This document shows, one piece after another, positions 3,910 through 16,510 of a stretch of 64,000 nt of DNA. Positions within the stretch are counted from its first letter, which is position 1. The number at the start of each line of letters is the position of its first letter. Source of the stretch: Catalinimonas alkaloidigena (GTDB taxonomy: Bacteria > Bacteroidota > Bacteroidia > Cytophagales > Cyclobacteriaceae); NCBI RefSeq assembly GCF_029504655.1, contig NZ_JAQFIL010000001.1:6143001-6207000 (forward strand). The letters are read 5' to 3'. The position numbers were made by a program, and so were the translations under genes. A model generated the notes under the pieces. It ran no database searches. It worked only from the letters and a program-made list of their open reading frames with translations, and had not been told where the DNA came from.

Positions 3910-3989
3910 ATAATAGAGTCTATTCTAATTTTTTACAGCTTGTATCATTGAAAGAAGAAAAAACATTTTTCAGGTACCACTGCGTCAGT

Positions 3990-4236
3990 CGCCCAGACGG
4001 GGTCGCCCAGACGGGGTCGCCCAGACGGGGTCGCCCAGACGGGGTCGCCCAGACGGGGTCGCCCAGACGGGGTCGCCCAGACGGGGTCGCCCAGACGGGG
4101 TCGCCCAGACGGGGTCGCCCAGACGGGGTCGCCCAGACGGGGTCGCCCAGACGGGGTCGCCCAGACGGGGTCGCCCAGACGGGGTCGCCCAGACGGGGTC
4201 GCCCAGACGGGGTCGCCCAGACGGGGTCGCCCAGAC
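3990..4236. repeat. Perfect 14-bp tandem repeat, 17.6 copies
   Basis: The unit CGCCCAGACGGGGT is repeated 17 times without a single mismatch (3990-4227), followed by a 9-base partial copy to 4236. Because 14 is not a multiple of three, each strand stays open in several frames and gives spurious ORFs of over 100 codons with a 14-residue period; I treat these as artefacts. Identity of all copies points to recent slippage or amplification. The array lies between the convergent XRE and DUF2911 genes. Confidence 0.97.
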
Positions 4237-4289
4237 CAACACCGGTGGATCACCCTTCCGGCATCCTGACCGGGAATCGCCATTCCGGG

Positions 4290-4382
4290 TCATCCCGCAG
4301 TGGCGACTGCCGTCAGGGATCTTATGCGTTATGCAAGCCATGGATATGCAGGGCTAAGATTCCTCCGCAAGCTACGGAATGA
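4290..4382. repeat. Imperfect palindromic interspersed element
   Basis: The segment starts TCATCCCG and ends CGGAATGA, with an inner inverted pair GGATCTTA/TAAGATTCC, forming a long imperfect palindrome of about 93 bp. The sequence just before it (4255-4289) has further inverted pieces such as GGAATCGCCATTCC. It has the look of a non-coding REP/MITE-like element. Confidence 0.45.
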
Positions 4383-5732: not shown

Positions 5733-5798
5733 GGAATTATATTATTTTTATGAGCGCTAGCTATCTCTCAGTATCTGAGCCGGCTGTTTATTCACAGC

Positions 5799-6002
5799 TT
5801 AATTGATTCCTAAGTTAAAGTATGCAAAAACAGCTTGAATGCCTTCTTTCTTCAGGTGGGGGTAAGATCGCAATATTTTGTCCTCTGTCCAGCCATTTGA
5901 CAACCTCTCCAGGATAAACTCAACTGATATTCTGGTACCCTTGATGATAGGTTTACCTAACAAAATATTTTTATCTGATACTATATGTTCCTGCCAGTTC
6001 AT
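5799..6002 (-). CDS. DUF433 antitoxin-like protein
   Basis: This 67-residue protein of the DUF433 family has the typical order: GKPIIKGTRISVEFILERLSNG, then ILRSYPHLKKEGIQAVFAY. DUF433 proteins usually act as DNA-binding antitoxins paired with a DUF5615 PIN-like toxin directly downstream. Here nothing codes for such a toxin before the terminator at 5732, so this is an orphan. Remains of another toxin-antitoxin pair lie immediately upstream (6094-6358). Confidence 0.85.
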   Translation of the reverse strand: MNWQEHIVSDKNILLGKPIIKGTRISVEFILERLSNGWTEDKILRSYPHLKKEGIQAVFAYFNLGIN

Positions 6003-6093
6003 AGTTAAACTTACGAAAATTCAGAAAAAGTTGTTCAGGGCTATCTTAAGAAGAGCTTGAAGCCAGAAGCGCTCAGTGATTTCATTTCTGTCG

Positions 6094-6165
6094 CTAATAC
6101 GATTGCTTCTGCTCTAGTTTTGGAAGAGAGATAATCGGTGTGGTATTGGATACAACCTTAGACAT
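6094..6165 (-). pseudogene. N-terminal remnant of a PIN-domain (VapC/DUF3368-like) toxin
   Basis: A 23-codon ORF begins MSKVVSNTTPIISLPKLEQK. VVSNTTPII is the standard N-terminus of PIN-domain toxins of the DUF3368 type, where the first Asp/Asn belongs to the catalytic acidic cluster. A stop follows at once and the rest of the roughly 150-residue toxin is missing. The start overlaps the end of the upstream antitoxin-like ORF (6158), as in intact TA operons. Confidence 0.55.
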
Positions 6166-6358
6166 TTATAATATCTTCATTCAAATCATCAATATCATAT
6201 TCACCAGGAAGTGAAACATTGTATCTGGCAAGCAACTCCTGACGAGACTTTAGCAAGTTCATAAAGCTTTATTAAAGCACTGTTTTCATTTCTGATTCAA
6301 AATCTTCATTACGTTTCAAAGTGTTAGCTGAATACGCTGGATATTCTGTATTTATCAT
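6158..6358 (-). pseudogene. Broken small antitoxin-like ORF
   Basis: Two in-frame pieces, 28 codons (from 6358) and 34 codons (from 6262), are separated by two consecutive TAA codons. Joined, they read as one small acidic protein ending PGEYDIDDLNEDIINV. Its stop overlaps the PIN-toxin remnant by a few bases, so it is most simply the antitoxin of a dead type II toxin-antitoxin pair. The antitoxin family was not recognised. Confidence 0.45.
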
Positions 6359-6444
6359 TCCTTTCACCTCATCTTTTATTCTTTTACATTAAAAAGCGAA
6401 ATCACTGCCGATTTGAAGGTTAGGATGTGTCTTTTTTTATGTTT

Positions 6445-6502
6445 AGTAACGGTTCAGCATAAAAGCAGTAGCAGATTATATGTTTTATAGCTTTTGTTTG
6501 CC
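6445..6502 (-). other. attC-like recombination site 1
   Basis: On the plus strand the order is AGTAAC, GGTTC, stem AGCATAAAA, an 18-base loop, complementary stem TTTTATAGC, TTTT, GTTTGCC. This is the R''-spacer-L''-L'-spacer-R' plan of integron attC sites, with AAC and GTT ends. It lies 55 bp downstream of the stop of the NTF2-like gene on the minus strand, the usual cassette position. R boxes match the classical RYYYAAC/GTTRRRY consensus only at AAC/GTT, so the call rests on architecture shared with the sites at 7053, 10825 and 13033. Confidence 0.45.
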
Positions 6503-6556
6503 AGTTGTAGGGTCTTTTGTCCGAACCTCATCCGTGACTTCTAGCTTTAATGTTTA

Positions 6557-7012
6557 CTATTCAACTTTAATAATCGTTGCTTGTCGCGCGATTATACTCC
6601 AACTATTATTGGAGTACTGCCATACATGTGTAAACCTCCTTGTCACAACTTTACCCGCATTCATCTGCTTACCTTGTGGTTTAATCACTTCTCCTCCCAT
6701 TACAATTGCTACGTTATCGTTAAACAAGATTCTCTCAATATTCCTTTCAAAGGATAAGTAATTAAGATCACCAGATCTAAAATGGGTTTTAGTTCCTTCA
6801 ACTGTCCCTACCACATTGGCCGGAGTATTTACTATCATTTTTGACGACCAAATTTTGTCAAATAGTGCAAGCGAGTCACCATTTAATACCGATTCTCTTT
6901 CAAGTTTTTCCAATCGTCTTATTTCAGATTCTCGTGAGTCCTGCGCCAATGCAACATGAGACACTCCTGTCACACAAGCTAAAATTGTTAGGAACTGTAT
7001 AATGTGTTTCAT
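6557..7012 (-). CDS. Exported NTF2-like (DUF4440/SnoaL-like) protein
   Basis: This protein of about 151 residues starts MKHIIQFLTILACVTG with a signal peptide ending VALAQ. The mature part has the NTF2-like fold signature of DUF4440: an N-terminal helix with EIRRLEKLERESVLNGDSL, then IWSSKMIVNTPANVV, a central NVAIVMGGEVIKP strand, and a C-terminal TRRFTHVWQYSNNSWSIIAR. The function is unknown, and such proteins are frequent integron-cassette cargo. A longer reading to 7156 exists, but 7012 gives a proper signal sequence. It is flanked on both sides by attC-like palindromes. Confidence 0.85.
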   Translation of the reverse strand: MKHIIQFLTILACVTGVSHVALAQDSRESEIRRLEKLERESVLNGDSLALFDKIWSSKMIVNTPANVVGTVEGTKTHFRSGDLNYLSFERNIERILFNDNVAIVMGGEVIKPQGKQMNAGKVVTRRFTHVWQYSNNSWSIIARQATIIKVE

Positions 7013-7052
7013 AATTTTTATCTCTAAGGTTATCATGTCAGACCCTATAGAT

Positions 7053-7111
7053 GCCAACGGTTCGCACATATGACGGCCGACGAATAGGAGGCTGGCCATT
7101 ATGTGCTTTGT
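7053..7111 (-). other. attC-like recombination site 2 (split by group II intron)
   Basis: Plus-strand order: GCCAAC (7053-7058), GGTTC, GCACATA (7064-7070), a loop, TATGTGC (7100-7106), TTTGT. Joining 7111 to 9090 across the intron restores the second half as TTT-GTTATCG. The site shares GCCAAC-GG(T/C)TC with site 4. The intron sits after the stem-loop and a TTTGT stretch, resembling how class C introns of the attC lineage insert (after a hairpin and TTGTT). Confidence 0.5.
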
Positions 7112-7276
7112 GTGTGCCTTGAATGGTAAATATAGTTCTTTAAAAGGATGTCCCAAAGGGTGAAAGCCGCCGGGGCCCGGTCCTGTAGGCGGGGGAGTCG
7201 TTACCCCAAGCTAAGCAAGTGGCAAGGTGGTTTGGAGTGATCCATGCACTGAAGTAATCGGACCGATTTCTATGAT

Positions 7277-8286
7277 TTACACAAGTGTGTACTCATAATT
7301 TTTGTCATATTTCTGGTTATTTCTCACGACGGCAAATATGCGTAAGACCAGTTTGTTTCTTACGGCATTGATTACTGACATTTTGTTCTTCCCCTGGGCT
7401 ACTTTGCGTTGATAATAATCGCGTAATTCTTCACAATGGTTAATCGCCGAGAGCGCAGACATATGCAGAAGAGTTTTGACTGTTTTATTAGCCAAGTGAG
7501 ACACGCGGTCCTTGCCCCTGATACTAGTGCCTGATCTGTACTGGAAAGGTACAACTCCAGCATAGCAAGCGTACTTTTTGGCATCAGTGAAGGCCTTAAA
7601 CTCATTAGTGGTGATGATTACTTCTCTGGCTGTCACTGTCCCAATGCCCTCTACGCTGGTAACCAGATTGAACAACCGGTTGAGTTCCTCGTCCGAGCGG
7701 ATCAGTTCATCCAGTTGCTTGTTGACCTGGACCAGGTCTTTCTCTAAAGCCTTTAGTGAGTGCTGACAGCACCGTTGCATTTTCTTTTGCAAAGCTTTAC
7801 CTAAAAACTCCCCGCTCTCTTGCAGTGAGGACTTAAGCTGCTTTTTAGCATTGATGAGCCGGGTGCGAAGTGCTGTCAGTATTTTGAGTTCTTTGATGAT
7901 CGGACGCGTAGCTTGCCAAAGCTTTACACTGTCTTGGTTCCTGTATGCATAAAAGGCAATACGTTCCGCATCTACTTTGTCATTCTTACCACGTTGTAAG
8001 CCGACTGAGTGCTTAATGCGTAGAGCCGATTCAAGCGGGGCTTCCCAAGCCAAATAGCCGTGTTTTTCTCTGAAAAATAGTCTAGCAGAGGGTAGTTGTA
8101 AATTCCGGTATGCTCCATACAAAACAGGCTCTCCTCTAGCTTACAACCAGACTGCTTGACAAAGTTTTTGACACCTTTACTATTGTTTTCTGTCTGGAGA
8201 TGTAGAACTACCTTTCCTGCGCTTATCAGACAGAAATCTAGTGTACTTTTTGAGACATCAATACCGATAAAATATTTAAAATGCAT
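7277..8286 (-). pseudogene. IS110-family transposase, frameshifted
   Basis: The N-terminal DEDD RuvC-like part starts MHFKYFIGIDVSKSTLDFCL at 8286 and contains the second acidic segment (LFCMEHTGIYNY). It is read in one frame down to about 8045. The rest, from EAPLESALRIKHSVGLQRGK with the motif NDKVDAERIA through the C-terminal transposase_20 domain (SVEGIGTVTAREVI, then YAGVVPFQYRSGTS with the serine nucleophile region), is in another frame. A single indel near 8030-8060 would restore a protein of about 335 residues. This is either a true inactivation or an assembly error; programmed frameshifting is not known for this family. Confidence 0.8.
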
Positions 8287-8560
8287 AGCTTTATGTTCAA
8301 CAGTTCCACATAGCGAGTCAATACGCTTGTCCACCTTCAATACCTTACTAGTAGGTCATGAGCCTAAATTTCTATTTGAAGTCTTAGGGCAAGCAATCCA
8401 GCAGAGGATTAAATCGGTCCATAGGTCTTTAATCCTGGCCGAGACGATAAAGTGCCTCTGTGGTAATGGCTCTTTCTAAGTGTGCAAATATGCATAACTC
8501 TATTGAGTTACACACATTCGCACACTTTAGTAGTAACAACTGCTTTCTTTGAATTTTAAT
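8287..8560 (-). ncRNA. Possible bridge-RNA region of the IS110 element
   Basis: IS110-group elements encode a structured bridge RNA between the left end and the transposase start. This 270-bp leader has no ORF and ends in a long hairpin (8478-8527) whose arms begin AAGTGTGC and end GCACACTT, with 19 of 23 positions paired around a TATT loop. I cannot identify the target- and donor-binding loops by eye, so the assignment is by position only. Confidence 0.3.
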
Positions 8561-9235
8561 ACTCTACAAATCTAAAGGCCGAGCGGCCAGACTGCGGTGT
8601 CTGTACTGACGAACAGAGACTACATATTGAGGCTACGAGACCGGATGAGGTAGCACATCATACCGAAGTCCAAAACCTCGCAAGAGGATAGTGTTGAAAT
8701 AGTAGATGTAGCAATGATAGGCACAAGCCGACGCGGCGCGGGGTATTTACCTTACCAAGGGAGGTCTCAAGTTCCACTATTGGATTCTTGAGAAGTCACA
8801 GCGTCGGCTGCCGACAGAGGTCATAGTAGCTGGAGGAACGAGCAGGGATTGCTAATACCATACCCCTGAAGTCTCACAGAACAGTGAAGGACCGAATGTT
8901 AAATTCGTCCTAAATGTAATCGGGAGGTTTACAGATTAAGAGTCTGCCAGCCTTGTCTTAGAATGGGCGGAGAGAAACCTCTCAATCTCAGCGAACCGCT
9001 GGTTACGCGATCGCGCCACGATGGCCCGTACGACCAGTGGTATGTGAGGCGCACCAGTGAGCTACAAGCTCACTGGCCGTCTACACGATTATCGGCTGCC
9101 TTTCATTAATCATTCTTTTTCAGGATTTTTTACAACTCACGAATTCAGTTTCACTTCTTAACCCAAGTCAATGAAATTGGGATTCAACCAGATTAATTTT
9201 ACTTCTATAATTATTTAACCAATAAAGTAGAAATT

Positions 9236-10168
9236 ATGAAAGCAATAGAATGTTTAAAGTATGGTGATGCGGAAAACCTTGTTTTAAGTAATGTTGAAAA
9301 ACCAACACCAAATGATAATGAAGTACTTATAAAGATACGTGCTACTTCAGTAACCACAAGTGACGTTCTTATTCGTGGACTGAATGAACCTCTGATTCCC
9401 AGATTCATACTCCAACTCATATTTGGTTTTGGAAGTCCAAGAAATCCTGTTTTGGGGATGGTAACATCAGGGATTGTAGAGAGTAAAGGTAAAGATGTGA
9501 CATTGTTTGACGTAGGGGATGAGATTTTTGCTTATGGTTCTATTTCACCTACCAACCGCCGTTTTGGTTCTTATGGAGAATATATATGTTTACCAGAAGA
9601 TTGGAATCTTGCACTAAAACCTGCGAATCTTAGTTTTGAAGAAGCCGCAGCAATTCCATATGGAGGTTTGCTAGCTTCTCATTTGTTAAAGAAGACATCT
9701 ATAAAAGAAGGAGACAAAATTCTCATTTATGGAGCTTCAGGAAGCATAGGTACTATGGCGATACAATTGGCGAAAAATACGGGTGCCCATGTCACTGGTG
9801 TATGCAGTCTTCGGAACTTTGACTTAGTCAAATCCCTGGGCTGTGATCAGATGATTGACTACACAGCAGAAAATGCTGAAAAACAATTGGAAACTTATAA
9901 ATATGTTATTGACGCTGTAGGCAATTCAAAATCATCGGCACTAAAAGAGAAGAGTAAAAAAACACTCACTCCGAACGGTAAATATATCTCCATAGATCAT
10001 GGGACTCCTTTAACGACCAGAGAAGCTTTTTTTAATTTAAAATCGTTGGCAGAACAAGGGAAGATTAAACCTGTAATTGATAGTGTTTATCCTTTGGAAA
10101 GAATGGTCGAAGCCCATAAATATGTAGAAAAGGGACACAAAAGAGGAAACGTTATTATTACTGTTTAG
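9236..10168 (+). CDS. NAD(P)-dependent alcohol dehydrogenase / quinone oxidoreductase (MDR family)
   Basis: This is a 310-residue medium-chain dehydrogenase/reductase. The N-terminal GroES-like domain (MKAIECLKYGDAENLVLSNV, then PTPNDNEVLIKIRATSVT) has no catalytic or structural zinc cysteines, so it belongs to the zinc-free quinone oxidoreductase/enoyl-reductase side of the family. The Rossmann domain carries the NADP loop ILIYGASGSIGTMAIQLAK at about residue 165. It probably reduces a quinone or an alpha,beta-unsaturated carbonyl. Codon use is AT-rich compared with the housekeeping genes. It is the only plus-strand gene in the cassette-like region, converging on the Crp-type regulator 20 bp away. 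Confidence 0.85.
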   Translation: MKAIECLKYGDAENLVLSNVEKPTPNDNEVLIKIRATSVTTSDVLIRGLNEPLIPRFILQLIFGFGSPRNPVLGMVTSGIVESKGKDVTLFDVGDEIFAYGSISPTNRRFGSYGEYICLPEDWNLALKPANLSFEEAAAIPYGGLLASHLLKKTSIKEGDKILIYGASGSIGTMAIQLAKNTGAHVTGVCSLRNFDLVKSLGCDQMIDYTAENAEKQLETYKYVIDAVGNSKSSALKEKSKKTLTPNGKYISIDHGTPLTTREAFFNLKSLAEQGKIKPVIDSVYPLERMVEAHKYVEKGHKRGNVIITV

Positions 10169-10188
10169 GATAATCCAACTATAAAGGA

Positions 10189-10770
10189 TTAATCAGTATT
10201 TGAAGCGATTCGTTTTCTAATGCGACTCAAAGATTCTGGTTGTATCCCTAAATAACTTGCAAGTTGATATTGGGGTACCCGCTGTATTAGGCCCGGCCTT
10301 GATTTTATTAATTTCAGATAGCGCTGTTCAGGTGAATCTGTGTAATAGGAAGACAAAGCTTCTTTTTGCTCTAGAAATGCAGCTTCCATGATGGTTCGTG
10401 ATATGGTCTCAAATCTGGGAAATCGTTTGAATAGTGCCTGGGCTTGTTGCTCGTCTCCCACAACTACAGTCGTTTCTTCAACACAAACCCAATTATGCTT
10501 TGCAGTATTATCTGTGGCAAAGTTATTTAATGAAATTGCCCATTGCTCTTCCGTAAAGAAATTAGTCGTTTTTTCATCACCTTCTGTTAATATATACTCT
10601 CTAACGCAGCCTTCCAGAATAAAATATGTATTTGCTGAAATTTGTCCTTCTTGTAATAAATAAGCTCCTTTTTTGAAATATTTTGTTTGCATGCTTTCAG
10701 CTATAGCTTCTGACTCTTCTTTGGAGAGAGGTGATATTTTTGAAAAATAACTTACAAATTTGTTTCCCAC
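10189..10770 (-). CDS. Crp/Fnr-family transcriptional regulator
   Basis: This 193-residue protein has a cyclic-nucleotide-binding-like domain (residues 25-120; KKGAYLLQEGQISANTYFIL, then EGCVREYILTEGDEKTTNFF) and a C-terminal winged HTH (YQLASYLGIQPESLSRIRKR). The cAMP-contacting RxS motif is not evident, as is usual for this Bacteroidota subgroup, so the ligand is unknown. It is convergent with the dehydrogenase at 9236 and has an attC-like palindrome 55 bp upstream of its start. It may control the dehydrogenase, but this is only proximity. Confidence 0.88.
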   Translation of the reverse strand: MGNKFVSYFSKISPLSKEESEAIAESMQTKYFKKGAYLLQEGQISANTYFILEGCVREYILTEGDEKTTNFFTEEQWAISLNNFATDNTAKHNWVCVEETTVVVGDEQQAQALFKRFPRFETISRTIMEAAFLEQKEALSSYYTDSPEQRYLKLIKSRPGLIQRVPQYQLASYLGIQPESLSRIRKRIASNTD

Positions 10771-10824
10771 AATAAATTCACATTTTCTATCGATTTACCT
10801 ATATCACCATCTCGCATACAGGTT

Positions 10825-10896
10825 GCCGACGGTCTCGGGTATGACAAGTGCAGGATTTCGGATCTGATTTCTTGTTCGTCTACCGCAAAGTTATTT
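10825..10896 (-). other. attC-like recombination site 3
   Basis: Plus-strand order: GCCGAC, GGTCTCG, stem GGTATGACAAG (10838-10848), a 22-base loop, stem CTTGTTCGTCTACC (10871-10884), GCAAA, GTTATTT. The stem pairs as GGTA/TACC and ACAAG/CTTGT with an unpaired bulge between, as in attC sites with extrahelical bases. Confidence 0.42.
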
Positions 10897-10931
10897 AAGT
10901 TGTAATGTTTTCATTTTTAAGCAGTCAGCCC

Positions 10932-10956
10932 GCATTTGCTATAGCCTTTGTTGGCA
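10932..10956 (-). other. Half of an attC-like site downstream of the VOC gene
   Basis: On the minus strand TGCCAAC is followed by AAAGG and CTATAGCAAATGC, the typical first half (R'' and L'') of the sites described here. It lies about 42 bp after the VOC stop codon. I could not find the complementary second half, so it may be truncated. Confidence 0.25.
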
Positions 10957-10997
10957 ACTGGCTTTTCTCACATGATTTCGTGTAGTTCACATTTTTG

Positions 10998-11372
10998 TCA
11001 TTTTAAATGTGCTAATAAATTGATAGTTACACCGTTAGGATCTTTTACAAAAAATCGTCTTACTCCCCAAGTTTCGTCAGTAATTGGATATACTATTTCA
11101 ATATTTTGTTTTTTAGCTCGTTCATACCAATCATCAATGTCCGTAACCTCAATTGATAAAAATATTGCTGTATTATCTAATGTTTTATTTTTTTCGTTTT
11201 GAAAAATCGATACTTGCGCAGTTGAGTTTTCTTTGGAAACAAAGGTCAATATCCATTCCATATCCATCGCCAATTCCATCTCTAAAAATTCGGTATAGAA
11301 TTGCTTGCTTTTTTCTATGTCATTTGAATAAATATTGGGAACAATTCTTCGAATGGCCAATTTGTTTTTCAT
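10998..11372 (-). CDS. VOC-family (glyoxalase/bleomycin resistance-like) protein
   Basis: This 124-residue single-domain vicinal-oxygen-chelate protein has an N-terminal RRIVPNIYSNDIEKSKQFYT strand-helix and a C-terminal RRFFVKDPNGVTINLLAHLK, both standard for the family. A metal-binding Glu/His set is not clearly complete. Substrate unknown; members range from glyoxalases to antibiotic-binding proteins and are common integron cargo. An IS110-family element starts just upstream of its start codon and has probably displaced its native promoter. Confidence 0.85.
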   Translation of the reverse strand: MKNKLAIRRIVPNIYSNDIEKSKQFYTEFLEMELAMDMEWILTFVSKENSTAQVSIFQNEKNKTLDNTAIFLSIEVTDIDDWYERAKKQNIEIVYPITDETWGVRRFFVKDPNGVTINLLAHLK

Positions 11373-11399
11373 TATAATAATTGCTTTTTTTTCAGCTTC

Positions 11400-13010
11400 T
11401 GACTAACGTAAAATTTAGTGTTGATTATCAAGTAGTTACTATTCCTAATTCTTCATTAGTTAATCCAAATTTATCAATTTGCTTTCTGATCCTTTTGACC
11501 AAGCCCAGCTTTCTTTTCTGATCCAAGTAAAGGTATCCTTCCGGATTGACATAAGGCGCTCCTTTCACCACCATATTCCAGATAATTACCGCCAGTTTCC
11601 TGGCTGTGGCACTAATAGCTGATACTCTTCCTTTTCTGAAGTTAATGCGCTGAAAAAAGTCTCTTAATGGTGTAGAGTCCTTGAGATTTCCTATGGCATT
11701 AGCTGCATTCCGCAGGGCTATTTTCAGTCTGTTACTTCCTTTAGGAACTTTGCTGGATAGCAACTTTCCCCCACTCACTTTATTGTTCGGGGCTAGCCTC
11801 AACCAACTGGCGAAATGCTTAGCTGTGGGAAACTTTTTGATCCCTTCCAATCCTACTTCGCTCATCAGTGACAGTACAGTAGAATAACTCATGCCTTCAA
11901 TAGCCAGTAAATCTGTGCCCTCAAACATCTGGTAGGATTTTAGATTCAGGTCAATGTCTTTCGGGGTATTCTTATTTATTCTTTTATGAGGTTTGGGTTC
12001 AATATGATGCTCTCTTTTATGGTCATCACTGCCTATGATCTCATCTAACTTTGCTGCTATCATTTTATCACATTCCTCAATCTTGAGTTGAAGATGGTCA
12101 TACATTTCCAGTTCCTGCTGAAGGGCAAAAAGATAATCCTTCCTGCCATTGGACTGCAAAGCCCTGGCAATTTCCTCTTCACTCTTTCTGCAATTTCCAT
12201 GGCGTAGGGAGGCAAGATTTTTAGGATTTGTTTCTCCAGCACAGACAGAGCGGATAATCAGCAGACCTGTAAGACCGCAGATGTCCTTCACCACTACATC
12301 AAGTCTAAGATTAAGCAGCCTTAGGTATTTCTGCATCTTCTTAGAGGTAGAAGCCGCTGAATGAAGCAAGTTGGCACGATGACGACAATAAGTTCTGAGT
12401 TCTTCAGTCTGACCATCTGGAAGAAAACTGCTGGTGAGTAACCCCAATGTATGAAGCTTCTGTATCCATTGGCAGTCTTTGATATCAGTTTTTTTGCCTT
12501 TAATATTCTTGGTGAACTTCCCATTGCAAAGGATGACGTGGAATCCCTTTGAAATTAGAACCGCATATAGATTTTGCCAGTAAGTTCCGGTACTTTCCAT
12601 TGCAATAGTCTTAACAAGATTATCTTTTAACCACTCTGCCATTGCGAAAAGGTCCTGATTGTAGACCCCAAATTCCCGAACATCTTGTTCGGATTGACCA
12701 ATAGCCACCCAGTGGGAGCGACTGCCAACGTCAACACCCGCAGCTTGGGGGTTGACGACTTCCATAGAGATTGATTCCTGTTCCATGATATAGAATTTTT
12801 TTGAGCTCTAAGGAGATGTGCTTTTGGCAAGAAAATATTCTGAACGGGGTTGCTGTAACCAGCACCGCCACTGAAGTAATCGCAAGCATCTCAACCAGGA
12901 TTGCACCCGTGCTTCCAAATGGAGCAACAGTTTAAAAATCGGCCTTACAAAGAGCTTTACCAATTTAAGAAAAAGTTGGATAGCGTACTCGTTAGCTTTA
13001 GAAGTAAATG
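11400..13010 (-). mobile_element. Second IS110-family element (approximate limits)
   Basis: It consists of an intact transposase gene (11428-12786) and a noncoding leader upstream (12787 to about 13010) where the bridge RNA of an IS110-group element would lie. It is inserted between the VOC gene and attC-like site 4. The two IS110-type transposases in this window differ strongly, so they represent separate lineages. The ends are estimates because no terminal repeats are visible. Confidence 0.6.
11428..12786 (-). CDS. IS110-family transposase
   Basis: This 452-residue transposase appears intact. The N-terminal DEDD/RuvC-like domain begins AAGVDVGSRSHWVAIGQ with the first catalytic Asp, followed by IAMESTGTYWQNLY (Glu) and KTDIKDCQWIQKLHTLGLL (the DxxD pair). 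The C-terminal transposase_20 domain has FEGTDLLAIEGMSYSTVLSL and WLRLAPNNKVSGGKLLS, where the nucleophilic Ser is expected. IS110 enzymes use a bridge RNA to choose targets. At 452 residues it is longer than the family average because of an insert between the domains (about 225-290). Confidence 0.93.
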   Translation of the reverse strand: MEQESISMEVVNPQAAGVDVGSRSHWVAIGQSEQDVREFGVYNQDLFAMAEWLKDNLVKTIAMESTGTYWQNLYAVLISKGFHVILCNGKFTKNIKGKKTDIKDCQWIQKLHTLGLLTSSFLPDGQTEELRTYCRHRANLLHSAASTSKKMQKYLRLLNLRLDVVVKDICGLTGLLIIRSVCAGETNPKNLASLRHGNCRKSEEEIARALQSNGRKDYLFALQQELEMYDHLQLKIEECDKMIAAKLDEIIGSDDHKREHHIEPKPHKRINKNTPKDIDLNLKSYQMFEGTDLLAIEGMSYSTVLSLMSEVGLEGIKKFPTAKHFASWLRLAPNNKVSGGKLLSSKVPKGSNRLKIALRNAANAIGNLKDSTPLRDFFQRINFRKGRVSAISATARKLAVIIWNMVVKGAPYVNPEGYLYLDQKRKLGLVKRIRKQIDKFGLTNEELGIVTT

Positions 13011-13032
13011 TTTCAATATATAAAGGATTGTC

Positions 13033-13097
13033 GCCAACGGCTCGTGTAACTGCAGTGTGAAGCGATTAGCGAACATTGTCAGCTACGCATTGTTCTC
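13033..13097 (-). other. attC-like recombination site 4
   Basis: Plus-strand order: GCCAAC, GGCTC, stem GTGTAACTG (13044-13052), a 27-base loop, stem CAGCTACGC (13080-13088), ATT, GTTCTC. The outer parts nearly equal site 2. It lies 38 bp downstream of the cupin stop codon on the minus strand. Confidence 0.45.
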
Positions 13098-13134
13098 TAC
13101 TGGCTTCCATTTAGATTTTAGAAATAGTTTCAAC

Positions 13135-13590
13135 TTAAAGCGGTGGACCAACAAACTCTTGTCCGTGTTTGGCAGATATTTGAGCCATTTTGTCCATAGT
13201 GAATTCCCCTGTGGCTAAAGCATTATGGAATTCCCGAAACATCTCTTCAATGGTCTGTGCCGGAGAAAAGATATAACGTAATCTTCCGGGAGTACCCCCC
13301 ACATTTTTAAAGGCATGAAGTGTTCCCCTTGGAATAAAGGCTACATCACCGGGCTTAAATTCATACATTTGACCTCCTACTTCGGCGATAAATTTTCCTT
13401 CCAAAAAGAAAAAAGTTTCATCCTGATGGCGGTGAACATGTCTGCCCGGACCAACTCCCGGCTCAACAATATCTTCAAATATTGCCTGGTTGCCATTAGT
13501 TTGCTTACCTGAAAGAAGAATTTTCAAGGTGATCGCATCTGGAAAAATAAGTGTTTCAGCAGAATCATATTTACTGTGTACTGGATTCAT
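13135..13590 (-). CDS. Cupin-domain protein
   Basis: This 151-residue single cupin has motif 1 GPGRHVHRHQDETFFFLEG (two His, Glu and a partly shifted third position) and motif 2 FKPGDVAFIPRGTLHAFKNV with the last metal-binding His. The C-terminal helix is about 35 residues long (TIEEMFREFHNALATGEFTM). It is cytosolic, and the metal and substrate are unknown; similar stand-alone cupins are often dioxygenase- or isomerase-like. A remnant of a membrane protein gene lies just upstream on the same strand. Confidence 0.9.
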   Translation of the reverse strand: MNPVHSKYDSAETLIFPDAITLKILLSGKQTNGNQAIFEDIVEPGVGPGRHVHRHQDETFFFLEGKFIAEVGGQMYEFKPGDVAFIPRGTLHAFKNVGGTPGRLRYIFSPAQTIEEMFREFHNALATGEFTMDKMAQISAKHGQEFVGPPL

Positions 13591-13612
13591 ATTGCTTATT
13601 TTATGATTGTAA

Positions 13613-13708
13613 TTATTGTATTTCTTTTTCTTCCTGCTTGCAGAGCACTATAGTTGCAATATATATTGCTGCTATACCCATAATACACAAAGCAATATAA
13701 GCATATCC
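13613..13708 (-). pseudogene. C-terminal remnant of a membrane transporter-like gene
   Basis: Thirty-one codons without a start read GYAYIALCIMGIAAIYIATI and end VLCKQEEKEIQ, typical of the last transmembrane helix and charged tail of an MFS-type carrier. The stop lies 23 bp before the cupin start, so an ancestral transporter-cupin operon is likely. The rest of the gene is gone. Confidence 0.35.
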
Positions 13709-13967
13709 CTATAAACTCCCTTAGCTATTTCGTGAATTGATAAGGCTTTGCTCTTATGCTTGGCAAGTGTTTCCCAACATCTGTGTATGATGAAGAAGAT
13801 TGGGTGTTAAGCTGCTTCATAGAGGCAAATCCCTGAAATCTGTTGCTTATCCATCATAGCGGTGTATGATCCTTAGCGCATAGGCAACCAAGCATAATTT
13901 CCTTAACAAATAGCTAGAGATAATTATAAGTTAGTACAGAGAAGAACCTATCATAACTCCTTCAATT

Positions 13968-14057
13968 GTCATTTTGAGCGTTAGCGAAAACTCTTTTCTA
14001 TTTAATAGGCTTATATTTTCAAAAACGGAAAGGATGCTTCCCTGCACTCAGCATGAC
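13968..14057. repeat. Imperfect inverted-repeat element in a 400-bp gap
   Basis: The ends GTCATTTTGAG and CTCAGCATGAC pair over 9 of 11 bases and enclose about 68 bp with inner partial pairing. This resembles dispersed palindromic elements of Bacteroidota genomes. The remainder of the interval 13709-14116 shows nothing I can assign. Confidence 0.45.
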
Positions 14058-14116
14058 TTATAAGACAGGCTTACGGTTTACAAAATAATCCCAGACATTA
14101 CTTTGCTCATTGTTTA

Positions 14117-16510
14117 TCAATCATTCCTCAGCGCCTGCGCGGGATTGGTACGGGCAGCCTGCAAGGATCGGTAGGTAATGGTAGTCAGGGCAATCAGTAG
14201 CGTAATCAGTATACCTGCGGCAAACAATCCTATACCCAGATCAATCTTGTACTCAAAGTTTTGCAGCCACAAGCGCATCACATAATAAGCCAAGGGTGCT
14301 GCTACCACAAAAGCAATCAGGATCAGCTTCAAAAACTCTACCGAAAAAAGCCTGACGATGCTGCTCACTGATGCGCCCAGTACCTTGCGTATGCCCACTT
14401 CTTTGGTTTTCTGCTCTGCCATAAAGGTGATCAATCCGTACAAGCCCAGACAGCCGATGAAAATCACAACCAGAGAGGCTATGGAAAGGATGACCGACAT
14501 ATTGCGTTCGCCTTCATAAAACTCAGCAATGGCTTCATCTATAAAACTGTAATCAAAAGTATATTCAGGATAGATCGCTTTCCAGCGACTTTCAACTTCT
14601 GCCAGAGTATTGCTTATATTATTGGTGTTGATCAGCACATGCGCCTGACGGAAGTTACTGGCATCTATCAGGACAGTAGGCTCAATCGTATTTCTCAGCG
14701 ATACGGTATGGAAATCTTTCATCACGCCTACGATGGGCAATGTTCTGCCCCAGATGTCTACCTGTCGTTCCAGGGCTTCCTCAGGTGAGCTAATACCTAC
14801 TTTGCTAAGAAACCTCTCATTGACCACCAGCCGGGTGATGCTATCCGATTCAATGAGCCCTGTACCGGCCAGCAGTTGCAGTCCATACACATCTACGTAA
14901 TCTTCATCTACATATTTCACCTGGGTATGATAGGTGGTCTCATCACCATCAATGGTAAAGGAAGTGACGGATACTGAGCCGGAAGAAGGGCTGCTGTAGG
15001 CCAGACTGACATTTTCTACCGTATTGATACGAAGCAGCTCATGCTTTAAAGTCTTTTTGCTTTGCGTATCTTCTCCCGGTAGGAATACTGATACGATGCC
15101 CTTTTGATTAAAACCCAGATCGGCCTGCCTCAGATAACGGGTCTGGCTGATCAGCACCAGCGTACCGATGATGAAAGCCTGGGCAATGACGAACTGAAAA
15201 ATCACCAGAGCTCGGCGGAGGTTATAGCCTTTTTGGTTAGAAAGTGACATGCTCGTTTTGAGCACTTTGCTGGGCTCAAAGCGCGTCAGCACCCAGGAGG
15301 GATAGGCGCCCGAAAGCAAGCTGACAACCAGCAGTACGACAAACAGAAAGATGAACAGGGAAACATCCTGCAGTAAGTCCATTTGCAGATCAAGCTCCAG
15401 AAAGTCGTTCATCCTGATCAGCAAAAGTTCTGCCGCACCCAGAGCCACCAGTACGGAGATGAAAGTGATGATGACAGCTTCGCCCATAAAAATGCGCATG
15501 AGCTGAGTGCGAGAACTGCCTAAAGCTTTGCGTACGCCTACTTCCTTGGCCCGCTTGGTAGCGATAGCGGTCGCCAGATTGACAAAATTAATGCAGGCAA
15601 TCAGCACCATAAAGGCTGCTATTATGCTCAGGGAATAAATGACAGGCATAGGAATGGTCCCGAAACTGTAGGCAGATCTGCTTTCGTCAAAATGCACTTC
15701 CTGAAGAGGCTGTAAAGATAAGATTACCTGCATTCCCTCCATTTGCATGTCATCATACTTGCTCATAAAATCAGGCAGCCTTTCATTGACTAAGGCAGGT
15801 GACTGCTCTTCGGCCAGCAACATAAAAAGCTGATTATCACTGTCAATGCTCCCCCAGCCACCATCTTCCAGCATGGCATCTTTTACTGTGGCATAAGAGA
15901 TAAGCATCTCAAAAGGCAGGTCGGTATTCTCGGGATGATCTTTGGCAATGCCGGTAATTTTCAGCTCAGTTTCTTTGTTGAGAGTAACACTTTGCCCCAC
16001 AATCTCCAGCTCCTGCCATTGCTTGCCAAAATATTTCTCAGCCATAGATTCGGATAGCACTACCTCATTAGGATCATCAAGCGCGGTAGCCGGATTACCC
16101 TGCACAAGCGGACGGTCAAATATTTTGAAGTAAGTGGGTTCAATATACACCAGCCCCTCTTCTTCCTGAAAGTTTTTCGCTTCATCGCTTCCGCCATTGA
16201 TTGTTATCAGTCCACGTCCAAAATACGACATGAATACCGCTTCTTCTATGTCCGAAAAATCTGTGCGCAAAGCATCCGGCAAGGGCACGGGCACGCCTCC
16301 GGTATGGTCGGTATTTCCCTGATAGGTGGTGGTGCGTACCAGCCGATAGATGCGATCTGCTTTACTGTGGTAAGTATCAAAGCTCAGCCAGAAACGAATC
16401 AACAGGAACAATACAATGCTGCAGGTAATGCCCAATGAAAGCCCCAGCACATTGATGGTAGTGTGGCTCTTATTTTTCCAGAGGTTACGCAGAGAGCTTT
16501 TGTACATCAT
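14117..16510 (-). CDS. FtsX/MacB-type ABC transporter permease
   Basis: This 797-residue inner-membrane permease has the duplicated MacB/FtsX layout: TM at about 18-42, a periplasmic MacB core (45-270), a FtsX domain with three TMs (about 290-420; KRAKEVGVRKALGSSRTQLM), a second TM and core (435-650), and a final FtsX domain (680-790; EQKTKEVGIRKVLGASVSSI). No ATPase is adjacent; in Bacteroidota these long permeases often sit away from their ATPase. The gene has a sigma-54-like promoter and enhancer pair in front and diverges from an NtrC-type regulator. Such systems export or sense envelope-active compounds, but the substrate here is unknown. Confidence 0.92.
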   Translation of the reverse strand: MMYKSSLRNLWKNKSHTTINVLGLSLGITCSIVLFLLIRFWLSFDTYHSKADRIYRLVRTTTYQGNTDHTGGVPVPLPDALRTDFSDIEEAVFMSYFGRGLITINGGSDEAKNFQEEEGLVYIEPTYFKIFDRPLVQGNPATALDDPNEVVLSESMAEKYFGKQWQELEIVGQSVTLNKETELKITGIAKDHPENTDLPFEMLISYATVKDAMLEDGGWGSIDSDNQLFMLLAEEQSPALVNERLPDFMSKYDDMQMEGMQVILSLQPLQEVHFDESRSAYSFGTIPMPVIYSLSIIAAFMVLIACINFVNLATAIATKRAKEVGVRKALGSSRTQLMRIFMGEAVIITFISVLVALGAAELLLIRMNDFLELDLQMDLLQDVSLFIFLFVVLLVVSLLSGAYPSWVLTRFEPSKVLKTSMSLSNQKGYNLRRALVIFQFVIAQAFIIGTLVLISQTRYLRQADLGFNQKGIVSVFLPGEDTQSKKTLKHELLRINTVENVSLAYSSPSSGSVSVTSFTIDGDETTYHTQVKYVDEDYVDVYGLQLLAGTGLIESDSITRLVVNERFLSKVGISSPEEALERQVDIWGRTLPIVGVMKDFHTVSLRNTIEPTVLIDASNFRQAHVLINTNNISNTLAEVESRWKAIYPEYTFDYSFIDEAIAEFYEGERNMSVILSIASLVVIFIGCLGLYGLITFMAEQKTKEVGIRKVLGASVSSIVRLFSVEFLKLILIAFVVAAPLAYYVMRLWLQNFEYKIDLGIGLFAAGILITLLIALTTITYRSLQAARTNPAQALRND

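Follow-up and report, generated by a model that had tools for sequence, protein, structure and literature searches.

The attC-like sites and adjoining genes between positions 6445 and 13590 of a 64,000-nucleotide stretch of the Catalinimonas alkaloidigena genome (contig NZ_JAQFIL010000001.1, positions 6,143,001 to 6,207,000; the whole stretch is referred to as the window) very probably represent a decayed gene-cassette array without an integrase, similar to a CALIN (cluster of attC sites lacking integrases). This array is assigned to an integron family whose integrases lack the patch typical of IntI, and four complete-looking members of the family were found in the same genome. A divergent cassette array of Bacteroidota had been proposed in a sequence-only reading of the window. 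The proposal is supported by the order and polarity of genes and sites, the complementarity of cassette starts and ends, an intron in the R'' part of one site, and the four arrays of like plan in the genome. By their sequence, the four loci look, and should work, like integrons; they are set apart from IntI integrons by the patch test. The array is composed of the following features (covariance model R2 is described below).

6445..6508, minus strand: attC-like site 1, after the NTF2-like gene, recognized by sequence and fold; absent from the list of model R2
6557..7012, minus strand: NTF2-like (DUF4440) cassette gene (Pfam PF14534; 896 homologues at E ≤1e-3)
7050..7111, minus strand: attC-like site 2, R' side and stem, broken at R'' (R2: 16.3 bits, E 1.1)
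9093..9100, minus strand: remainder of R'' of site 2 past the intron; the joined read, GTCGGC, equals this cassette's start at site 3
9236..10168, plus (opposite) strand: zinc-type alcohol dehydrogenase/quinone reductase-like gene (QOR; Pfam PF13602, PF08240)
10189..10770, minus strand: Crp/Fnr-like regulator (Pfam PF00027)
10822..10896, minus strand: attC-like site 3, core GTC, recognized by sequence and fold; absent from the list of model R2
about 10937..10958, minus strand: R''-type half site of the VOC cassette, resembling site 1 (repeat D1), with 8/9 pairing with the cassette start at site 4
10998..11372, minus strand: VOC (glyoxalase-like) cassette gene (Pfam PF00903)
13030..13100, minus strand: attC-like site 4, after the cupin gene, recognized by sequence and fold (R2: 15.0 bits, E 2.5)
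13135..13590, minus strand: cupin gene (Pfam PF07883)

On the minus strand, the order is cupin gene, site 4, VOC gene (preceded by an IS110 element), half site and site 3, continued by the Crp/Fnr-like regulator with the opposite dehydrogenase gene, site 2, the NTF2-like gene and site 1. The four palindromes were found where the sequence-only reading had placed them, and their common plan was confirmed. Read on the minus (gene) strand, NNNAAC is followed by a short spacer, stem, loop, stem, 5-6 nt ending in C, and GTT; site 3 ends in GTC where the other window sites have GTT. The NTF2-like (DUF4440), VOC and cupin identities were verified by Pfam, and the half site claimed after the VOC gene was located at about 10937-10958. 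Site 2 had been described as joined to 9090-9096, which is correct within 3 nt: its left part ends at 7111 (..CTTTGT), and the rest starts at 9093 (CGGCTGCC). The R' of site 2 is GTTGGC, and its R'' across the intron is GTCGGC, an unusual core like that of site 3, about 1.7 kb away. The motif GARCCGTTGGC is present in six copies genome-wide, four of which are located outside the window and are without the site plan as judged by eye.

Among the best 120 of the 896 homologues of the DUF4440 cassette protein (6557-7012), many are 70-90% identical, and some are encoded on contigs of 500-800 bp. One cluster of these homologues has 101 members. The homologues on short contigs may, as a guess, be cassette amplicons.

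The four complete-looking loci are located on C1 at 708 kb (I1), 1.79 Mb (I2) and 5.31 Mb (I3), and on the 154-kb contig C3 (I4). Each consists of a tyrosine recombinase gene, followed by a palindromic attI ending in GTT and by cassettes with attC-like hairpins on the same strand. The GTT with the preceding palindrome and spacer was found 28-119 bp past the stop codon of the recombinase gene. Directly before this GTT, the attI reads ATGCACAATATGCATGTTCGGAT in I1, GTGGATATAACCGCCATATGGCGTATCCACATTC in I2, and AATAAACACAACTCCG(G/C)TGTGTTTATTCGGAT in I3 and I4. The start of the first cassette matches its own R'' at 9/9 positions in I2 and I4, and is one base off in I1 and I3 (start GTTGATAGGC, R'' GCCTACAAC). 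I3 and I4 have closely similar integrases and near-identical attI sites, to which different first cassettes are joined at GTT.

The patched IntI suggested as a search target by the sequence-only reading did not appear, as no match over the cut-off was obtained when the genome was searched with the integron integrase profile TIGR02249. All four recombinases match this profile at both ends and not in the middle, and the three that were scored whole reached 221.6-233.4 bits (cut-off 265). The stretch from KDR to HxRH comprises 58 amino acids in all four recombinases, compared to 99-100 amino acids in 11 rows classed by us as patched IntI. Judged from these sequences, the four recombinases are without the IntI-specific insertion of about 40 residues (the patch), which is held to define integrons, and fail the defining patch test. 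Three of the integrases scored 211.7-224.2 bits with NF040815, around its cut-off of 220, and have a XerA-like fold. The earlier statement that no integrase is present holds locally, with no TIGR02249 match in the window, but not genome-wide, where matching integrases of the patchless type exist. A different tyrosine recombinase adjoins an IS91-type transposase at two near-identical loci, one on C1 and one on C3 (L015, L016).

Forty cassettes of the four loci start at GTT with 9 nt whose reverse complement recurs without a mismatch at the other cassette end, as the 9 nt up to and including AAC; these 40 start/end pairs include some copies of the same cassette. Twenty stretches of the same chromosome, 400 kb in total, gave 0 pairs at 9/9 and 10 at 8/9. 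A structure-only test was performed with 51 sites in manually chosen array spans. Of 47 cases, 30 showed a perfect match between the outer 6 nt of R' and the R'' of the following site, and the controls gave 0/47 with the previous site, 6/600 with other sites and 2/51 with the same site. The longest open reading frame (ORF) is on the array strand in 39 of the 40 cassettes; in these 39, it starts at a median of 19 nt past GTT, ends at a median of 11 nt before AAC, and covers a median of 94% of the length. Nearly all cassettes consist of one gene and a hairpin site, mostly of about 50-70 or 110-135 nt. Position 4 of R' is a purine in 39/40 and positions 5-7 vary, AAC and GTT being set by the rule. 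Eight cassette proteins of I2 were scanned, three of which match Pfam (SMI1/KNR4, DUF7003, ankyrin) and five of which do not.

Stretches of 503, 563, 606, 706, 878 and 1199 bp recur elsewhere at 99.7-100% identity with edges at GTT, including cassettes of 503, 1199 and 878 bp at 100%, and the recurrence of near-identical cassettes spans the chromosome and C3. The edges of these cassettes are consistent with exchange between G and TT, as far as a comparison can tell. Exchange of modules at short dif-like sites by the housekeeping recombinases XerC and XerD would be another way of moving genes. The hairpin sites, the GTT core, the cassette-specific ends and the linkage to a dedicated integrase and attI make this extremely unlikely, and dif sites look different from these hairpin sites.

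In the L stems of sites in 9/9 pairs (43 own sites), A.C outnumbers G.T on the top strand by 32 to 4, and in 79 sites of 15 other loci by 90 to 8. Since the site scanner rewards G.T and punishes A.C, this bias was not made by the scanner; the stems were scored gapless, and bulges (extrahelical bases) could escape. An A.C on the top strand is a G.T on the bottom strand, so the bottom strand forms the better hairpin. In the end-to-end pairing, all 40 own cassettes and 55 of 56 others have A at position 11 of the start, opposite C in 34/40 and 39/56, respectively, and positions 12-13 are mostly paired again. Twelve short sites were aligned for the first covariance model; 26 cells show changes on both sides, and the resulting covariation of 0.372 was matched by 0/500 shuffles, slid structures reaching at most 0.110.

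A whole-genome search with model R1 resulted in at least 21 matches at E ≤1 (150 of 1904 first-look candidates were scored). On the chromosome, the 8 matches before 2.6 Mb are all on the plus strand and the 7 after 3.5 Mb all on the minus strand; the 6 matches on C3 are all plus. The 7 minus matches include two with E >0.1 and one that is window site 4, which was contained in R1, so that its 51.1 bits are not evidential. The GC skew switches sign in the region from about 2.8 to 3.4 Mb; of the later samples, L185 and L189 are exceptions. From site orientation and GC skew it follows that the top strand runs with the fork and that the bottom strand is on the leading-strand template. The same site orientation relative to replication is described for sedentary integrons in a passage of PMC11023631.

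Model R2 was built from 11 sites of the complete arrays, with the window left out. Lone short-type sites away from arrays were found in this genome at C1:2507440, 367222, 4547707, 3620384 and 3664124, with R2 scores of up to 81 bits; they are suggested to be single cassettes or relics. Taken alone, the site model did not single out the sites of the window. Aligned with MAFFT, neither the four window sites by themselves nor sites of mixed length gave an informative result. A strict motif expected for Bacteroidota cassette sites was found in 0/395 genomes, and the expectation was not borne out.

The window array is part of an island, and several mobile elements are inserted in it:

5736..14107, no strand: island, absent from the corresponding place of two sister genomes (flank comparison, G395 and G396)
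7112..9092, plus strand: group II intron in the bottom strand of site 2, after CTTTGT (Rfam RF02001, 62.3 bits at 8598-8727; ends placed by eye)
7277..8340, minus strand: IS110-family transposase with a frameshift, located within the intron (two overlapping ORFs, each matching Pfam IS110)
11428..12786, minus strand: IS110-family transposase in the 5' part of the VOC cassette (Pfam PF01548/PF02371)

The island flanks (window to 5735 and from 14108) are separated by 36 bp in G395; in G396, the flanks that were matched extend to 5547 and start again at 14121, with 187 bp between them. With an empty site in both sister genomes, the array was either inserted in this lineage or deleted from the other two. 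An ORF of 67 amino acids lies past site 1 within the island (5799-6002, minus strand) and may, by its look, be of DUF433 type. Outside the island, positions 3945-4382 contain a GC-rich short tandem repeat (SGRPRLGDPVWATP) that is open in several frames.

The 5' junction of the window intron is CTTTGT/GTGTGCC. Among the intron 5' junctions of the window and the four arrays, TTTGT was found in four and AATGT in one (I4), the R'' context being assigned by eye. Copies of the window intron are located about 10-14 kb from each of the four patchless recombinases, and reverse transcriptase and maturase domains are present in the copies at I1 and I2. A further copy (L060, C1:233 kb) was without chained sites, and its 5' end could not be located; two unrelated places also fitted the pattern by which intron 5' ends were sought. 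As described in PMC7923331, group IIC-attC introns are inserted at TTGT/T in the R'' of the bottom strand of attC and are oriented against the cassette genes. The window intron resembles them by its location in an attC bottom strand at R'' after (T/A)TGT and by its orientation opposite to the cassette genes. Its assignment is to group II, based on RF02001 and the reverse transcriptase and maturase domains only, and it differs in that no maturase gene was seen in the window copy. The IS110 element at 11428..12786 has two further copies in the genome, which are 95% and 85% identical. The 14-mer CACTGAAGTAATCG is identical at window positions 7247-7260 and 12869-12882, beside two different IS110 copies.

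PMC7923331 also states that group IIC introns target terminator hairpins. The window palindromes could be transcription terminators of the ordinary kind or dispersed repeats with no relation to the four arrays, and the held-out covariance model R2 leaves the window sites at noise level. This is considered unlikely in view of the start/end pairing, the R'' of site 2 that matches the unusual GTC start of the same cassette, the presence of all four sites on the gene strand, the intron target and orientation as in the arrays, the gene cargo, and the empty site in the sister genomes.

Scanning of genome contigs resulted in at least 80 recombinase loci. Of 36 patchless loci (35 in Bacteroidota groups), 19 were testable, having at least 2 kb after the gene (17 had less than 2 kb). 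An attI-type start was defined as a GTT at most 400 bp past the integrase whose 9 nt fit the R'' of a later site without a mismatch. Among the matches listed, such a start was found in 13 of the 19 testable patchless loci, compared to 1/21 'other' recombinases and 0/8 patched IntI. The single positive 'other' recombinase is from Pontibacter, itself a member of the Bacteroidota; the 'other' group also includes four loci of Bacteroidota in which the gene is truncated or broken (L110, L111, L120, L141). Random anchors gave attI-type starts in 14/362 of a first set and in 1/147 and 3/397 of the other two sets.

Chained pairs (≥8/9) downstream on the integrase strand were found in Rufibacter (13), Algibacter (8) and Flavobacteriaceae S0862 (5), and 14 Rufibacter sites were detected with R2 at 27-55 bits. 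In 6 of 11 further regions from other genomes, a 9/9 pair was present on the integrase strand (L159, L160, L165, L166, L167, and L168, the integrase of which was missed by the ORF filter). A plasmid of Chryseobacterium sp. SNU WT5 (L202, 7758-16798) carries an attI-type start 105 bp past an integrase relative, and a later end, located beyond another site, matches it at 9/9. This integrase relative is followed by genes for Crp/Fnr, RidA, IS110 and a group II intron, a cargo that closely resembles that of the window. No attI-type start was found in a second Chryseobacterium plasmid (L203). In Acinetobacter plasmids (L200, L201), tet(X3) is directly preceded by the gene of a recombinase that shares 56% identity with the I4 integrase over 81% of the latter. 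With 0 chained pairs and no attI-type start in L200, nothing is claimed for it.

Alternatively, the cassettes could be ordinary ones that are moved by a patched IntI carried by some strains or by a plasmid, the patchless recombinases being mere neighbours. A patched IntI over the cut-off was found in 1/395 genomes of the class, intI is reported for the Bacteroidetes/Chlorobi group in portions of PMC2426708 and PMC9024848, and CALINs are described as common in an excerpt of PMC9668308. This explanation is rated very unlikely because no patched IntI over the cut-off is present in this genome, the arrays are often directly downstream of patchless recombinases, and in I3 and I4 similar integrases and near-identical attI sites are joined to different first cassettes at GTT.

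For the window array itself, the starts and ends of three cassettes were compared with 20,000 random pairs from the chromosome; the observed score was reached by 130 random pairs for the NTF2 cassette, by 656 for the Crp/QOR cassette, the R'' of which was read across the intron, and by 656 for the VOC cassette. Several points weigh against this reading of the window array and against an integron family with patchless integrases. The start/end complementarity is modest per cassette (p of about 0.007 for NTF2, 0.03 for Crp/QOR and 0.03 for VOC), and the mismatched combination of NTF2 start and VOC end scores 8, the correct one 9. The R2 scores of sites 2 and 4 (16.3 bits, E 1.1, and 15.0 bits, E 2.5) are not significant, window sites 1 and 3 were not listed by R2, and a random stretch scored up to 14.4 bits. 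In the complete arrays, the chain rule requires AAC/GTT, and site scanner and 9-nt rule were purpose-built, unlike the model of IntegronFinder. With the looser rule (≥8/9), 122 real pairs were obtained versus 23 shuffled ones over the scanned loci, and fewer than 5 of 6 positions matched in 15 of the 47 structure-only neighbours. In other genomes, no attI-type start was found in 6 of the 19 testable patchless loci and no 9/9 pair on the integrase strand in 5 of the 11 further regions; a single clade of Bacteroidota rows was not rejected by the clade test and not demonstrated either. In addition, a passage of PMC8138268 calls the insertion 'not fully conserved' in an integron-like subgroup, so patchless relatives are not unheard of. 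On our best reading, the membership of the window array in the integron family rests on architecture, intron target, start/end pairing and cargo, and not on the site model.

If the loci are active, the patchless integrase would fold the bottom strand of attC and cut between G and TT. The cassette would be excised as a circle, its two ends forming an extended R stem, and would then be inserted at attI. The strand choice would be coded by G.T pairs of the bottom strand (A.C on the top strand) instead of through recognition of extrahelical bases by the patch. The window array probably received its cassettes from these integrases in trans, or has lost an integrase of its own, and would later have been struck by the group II intron and the IS110 elements.

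Canonical integrons are characterized by, e.g., an R'' of RYYYAAC, an R' of GTTRRRY, and extrahelical bases that set the recombining strand. The loci described here resemble IntI integrons, such as class 1 integrons and the Vibrio superintegron, in the combination of integrase, attI and a one-directional array of mostly single-gene cassettes. They also share hairpin attC sites with AAC/GTT, exchange edges at GTT, and sites co-directional with replication, the latter according to the part of PMC11023631 that deals with it. They differ by the missing patch, the location of integrase and cassettes on the same strand, the palindrome contained in attI, an R' of GTTRKN instead of GTTRRRY, and A.C/G.T mismatches in gapless stems. 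The window array is like a CALIN in having several attC-like sites and no TIGR02249 match in the window, and unlike a CALIN in that the site model is not significant and matching integrases are present elsewhere in the genome. With the XerA-type 'site-specific tyrosine recombinase/integron integrase' (NF040815), the integrases share bit scores near the cut-off and the XerA-like fold; unlike this type, they adjoin attI and cassette arrays.

The IntI-specific domain is used for finding integrons with IntegronFinder, as outlined in a section of PMC9668308, and is called essential for integron function in a statement of PMC8138268. The integrases described here are of a type that a patch-based profile, as in that account of IntegronFinder, should miss. 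In the survey with IntegronFinder 2.0, as given in portions of PMC9024848, Bacteroidetes yielded only In0 in an earlier round and one complete integron, that of Salinibacter ruber, in a second round. No paper on patchless integrons was found in a search of the open-access literature that had preprints outside its range and covered few subscription papers.

The chances are about even that a second, patch-independent integron lineage exists across the Bacteroidota. Its choice of the folded strand would depend on G.T pairs together with a cassette-specific end pairing of 9-10 bp, a conserved A.C/G.T mismatch at position 11, and a further 2-3 bp. Integron recombination would then be independent of the patch and may predate it, and 'CALINs' of Bacteroidota could be complete integrons. 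If the loci work, a large phylum would possess a largely unrecorded cassette-exchange system, and the origin of integrons would become testable, the patch having been either gained after the array or lost. They would also represent a second solution to telling the bottom from the top strand, which would be testable by single-base swaps in a site.

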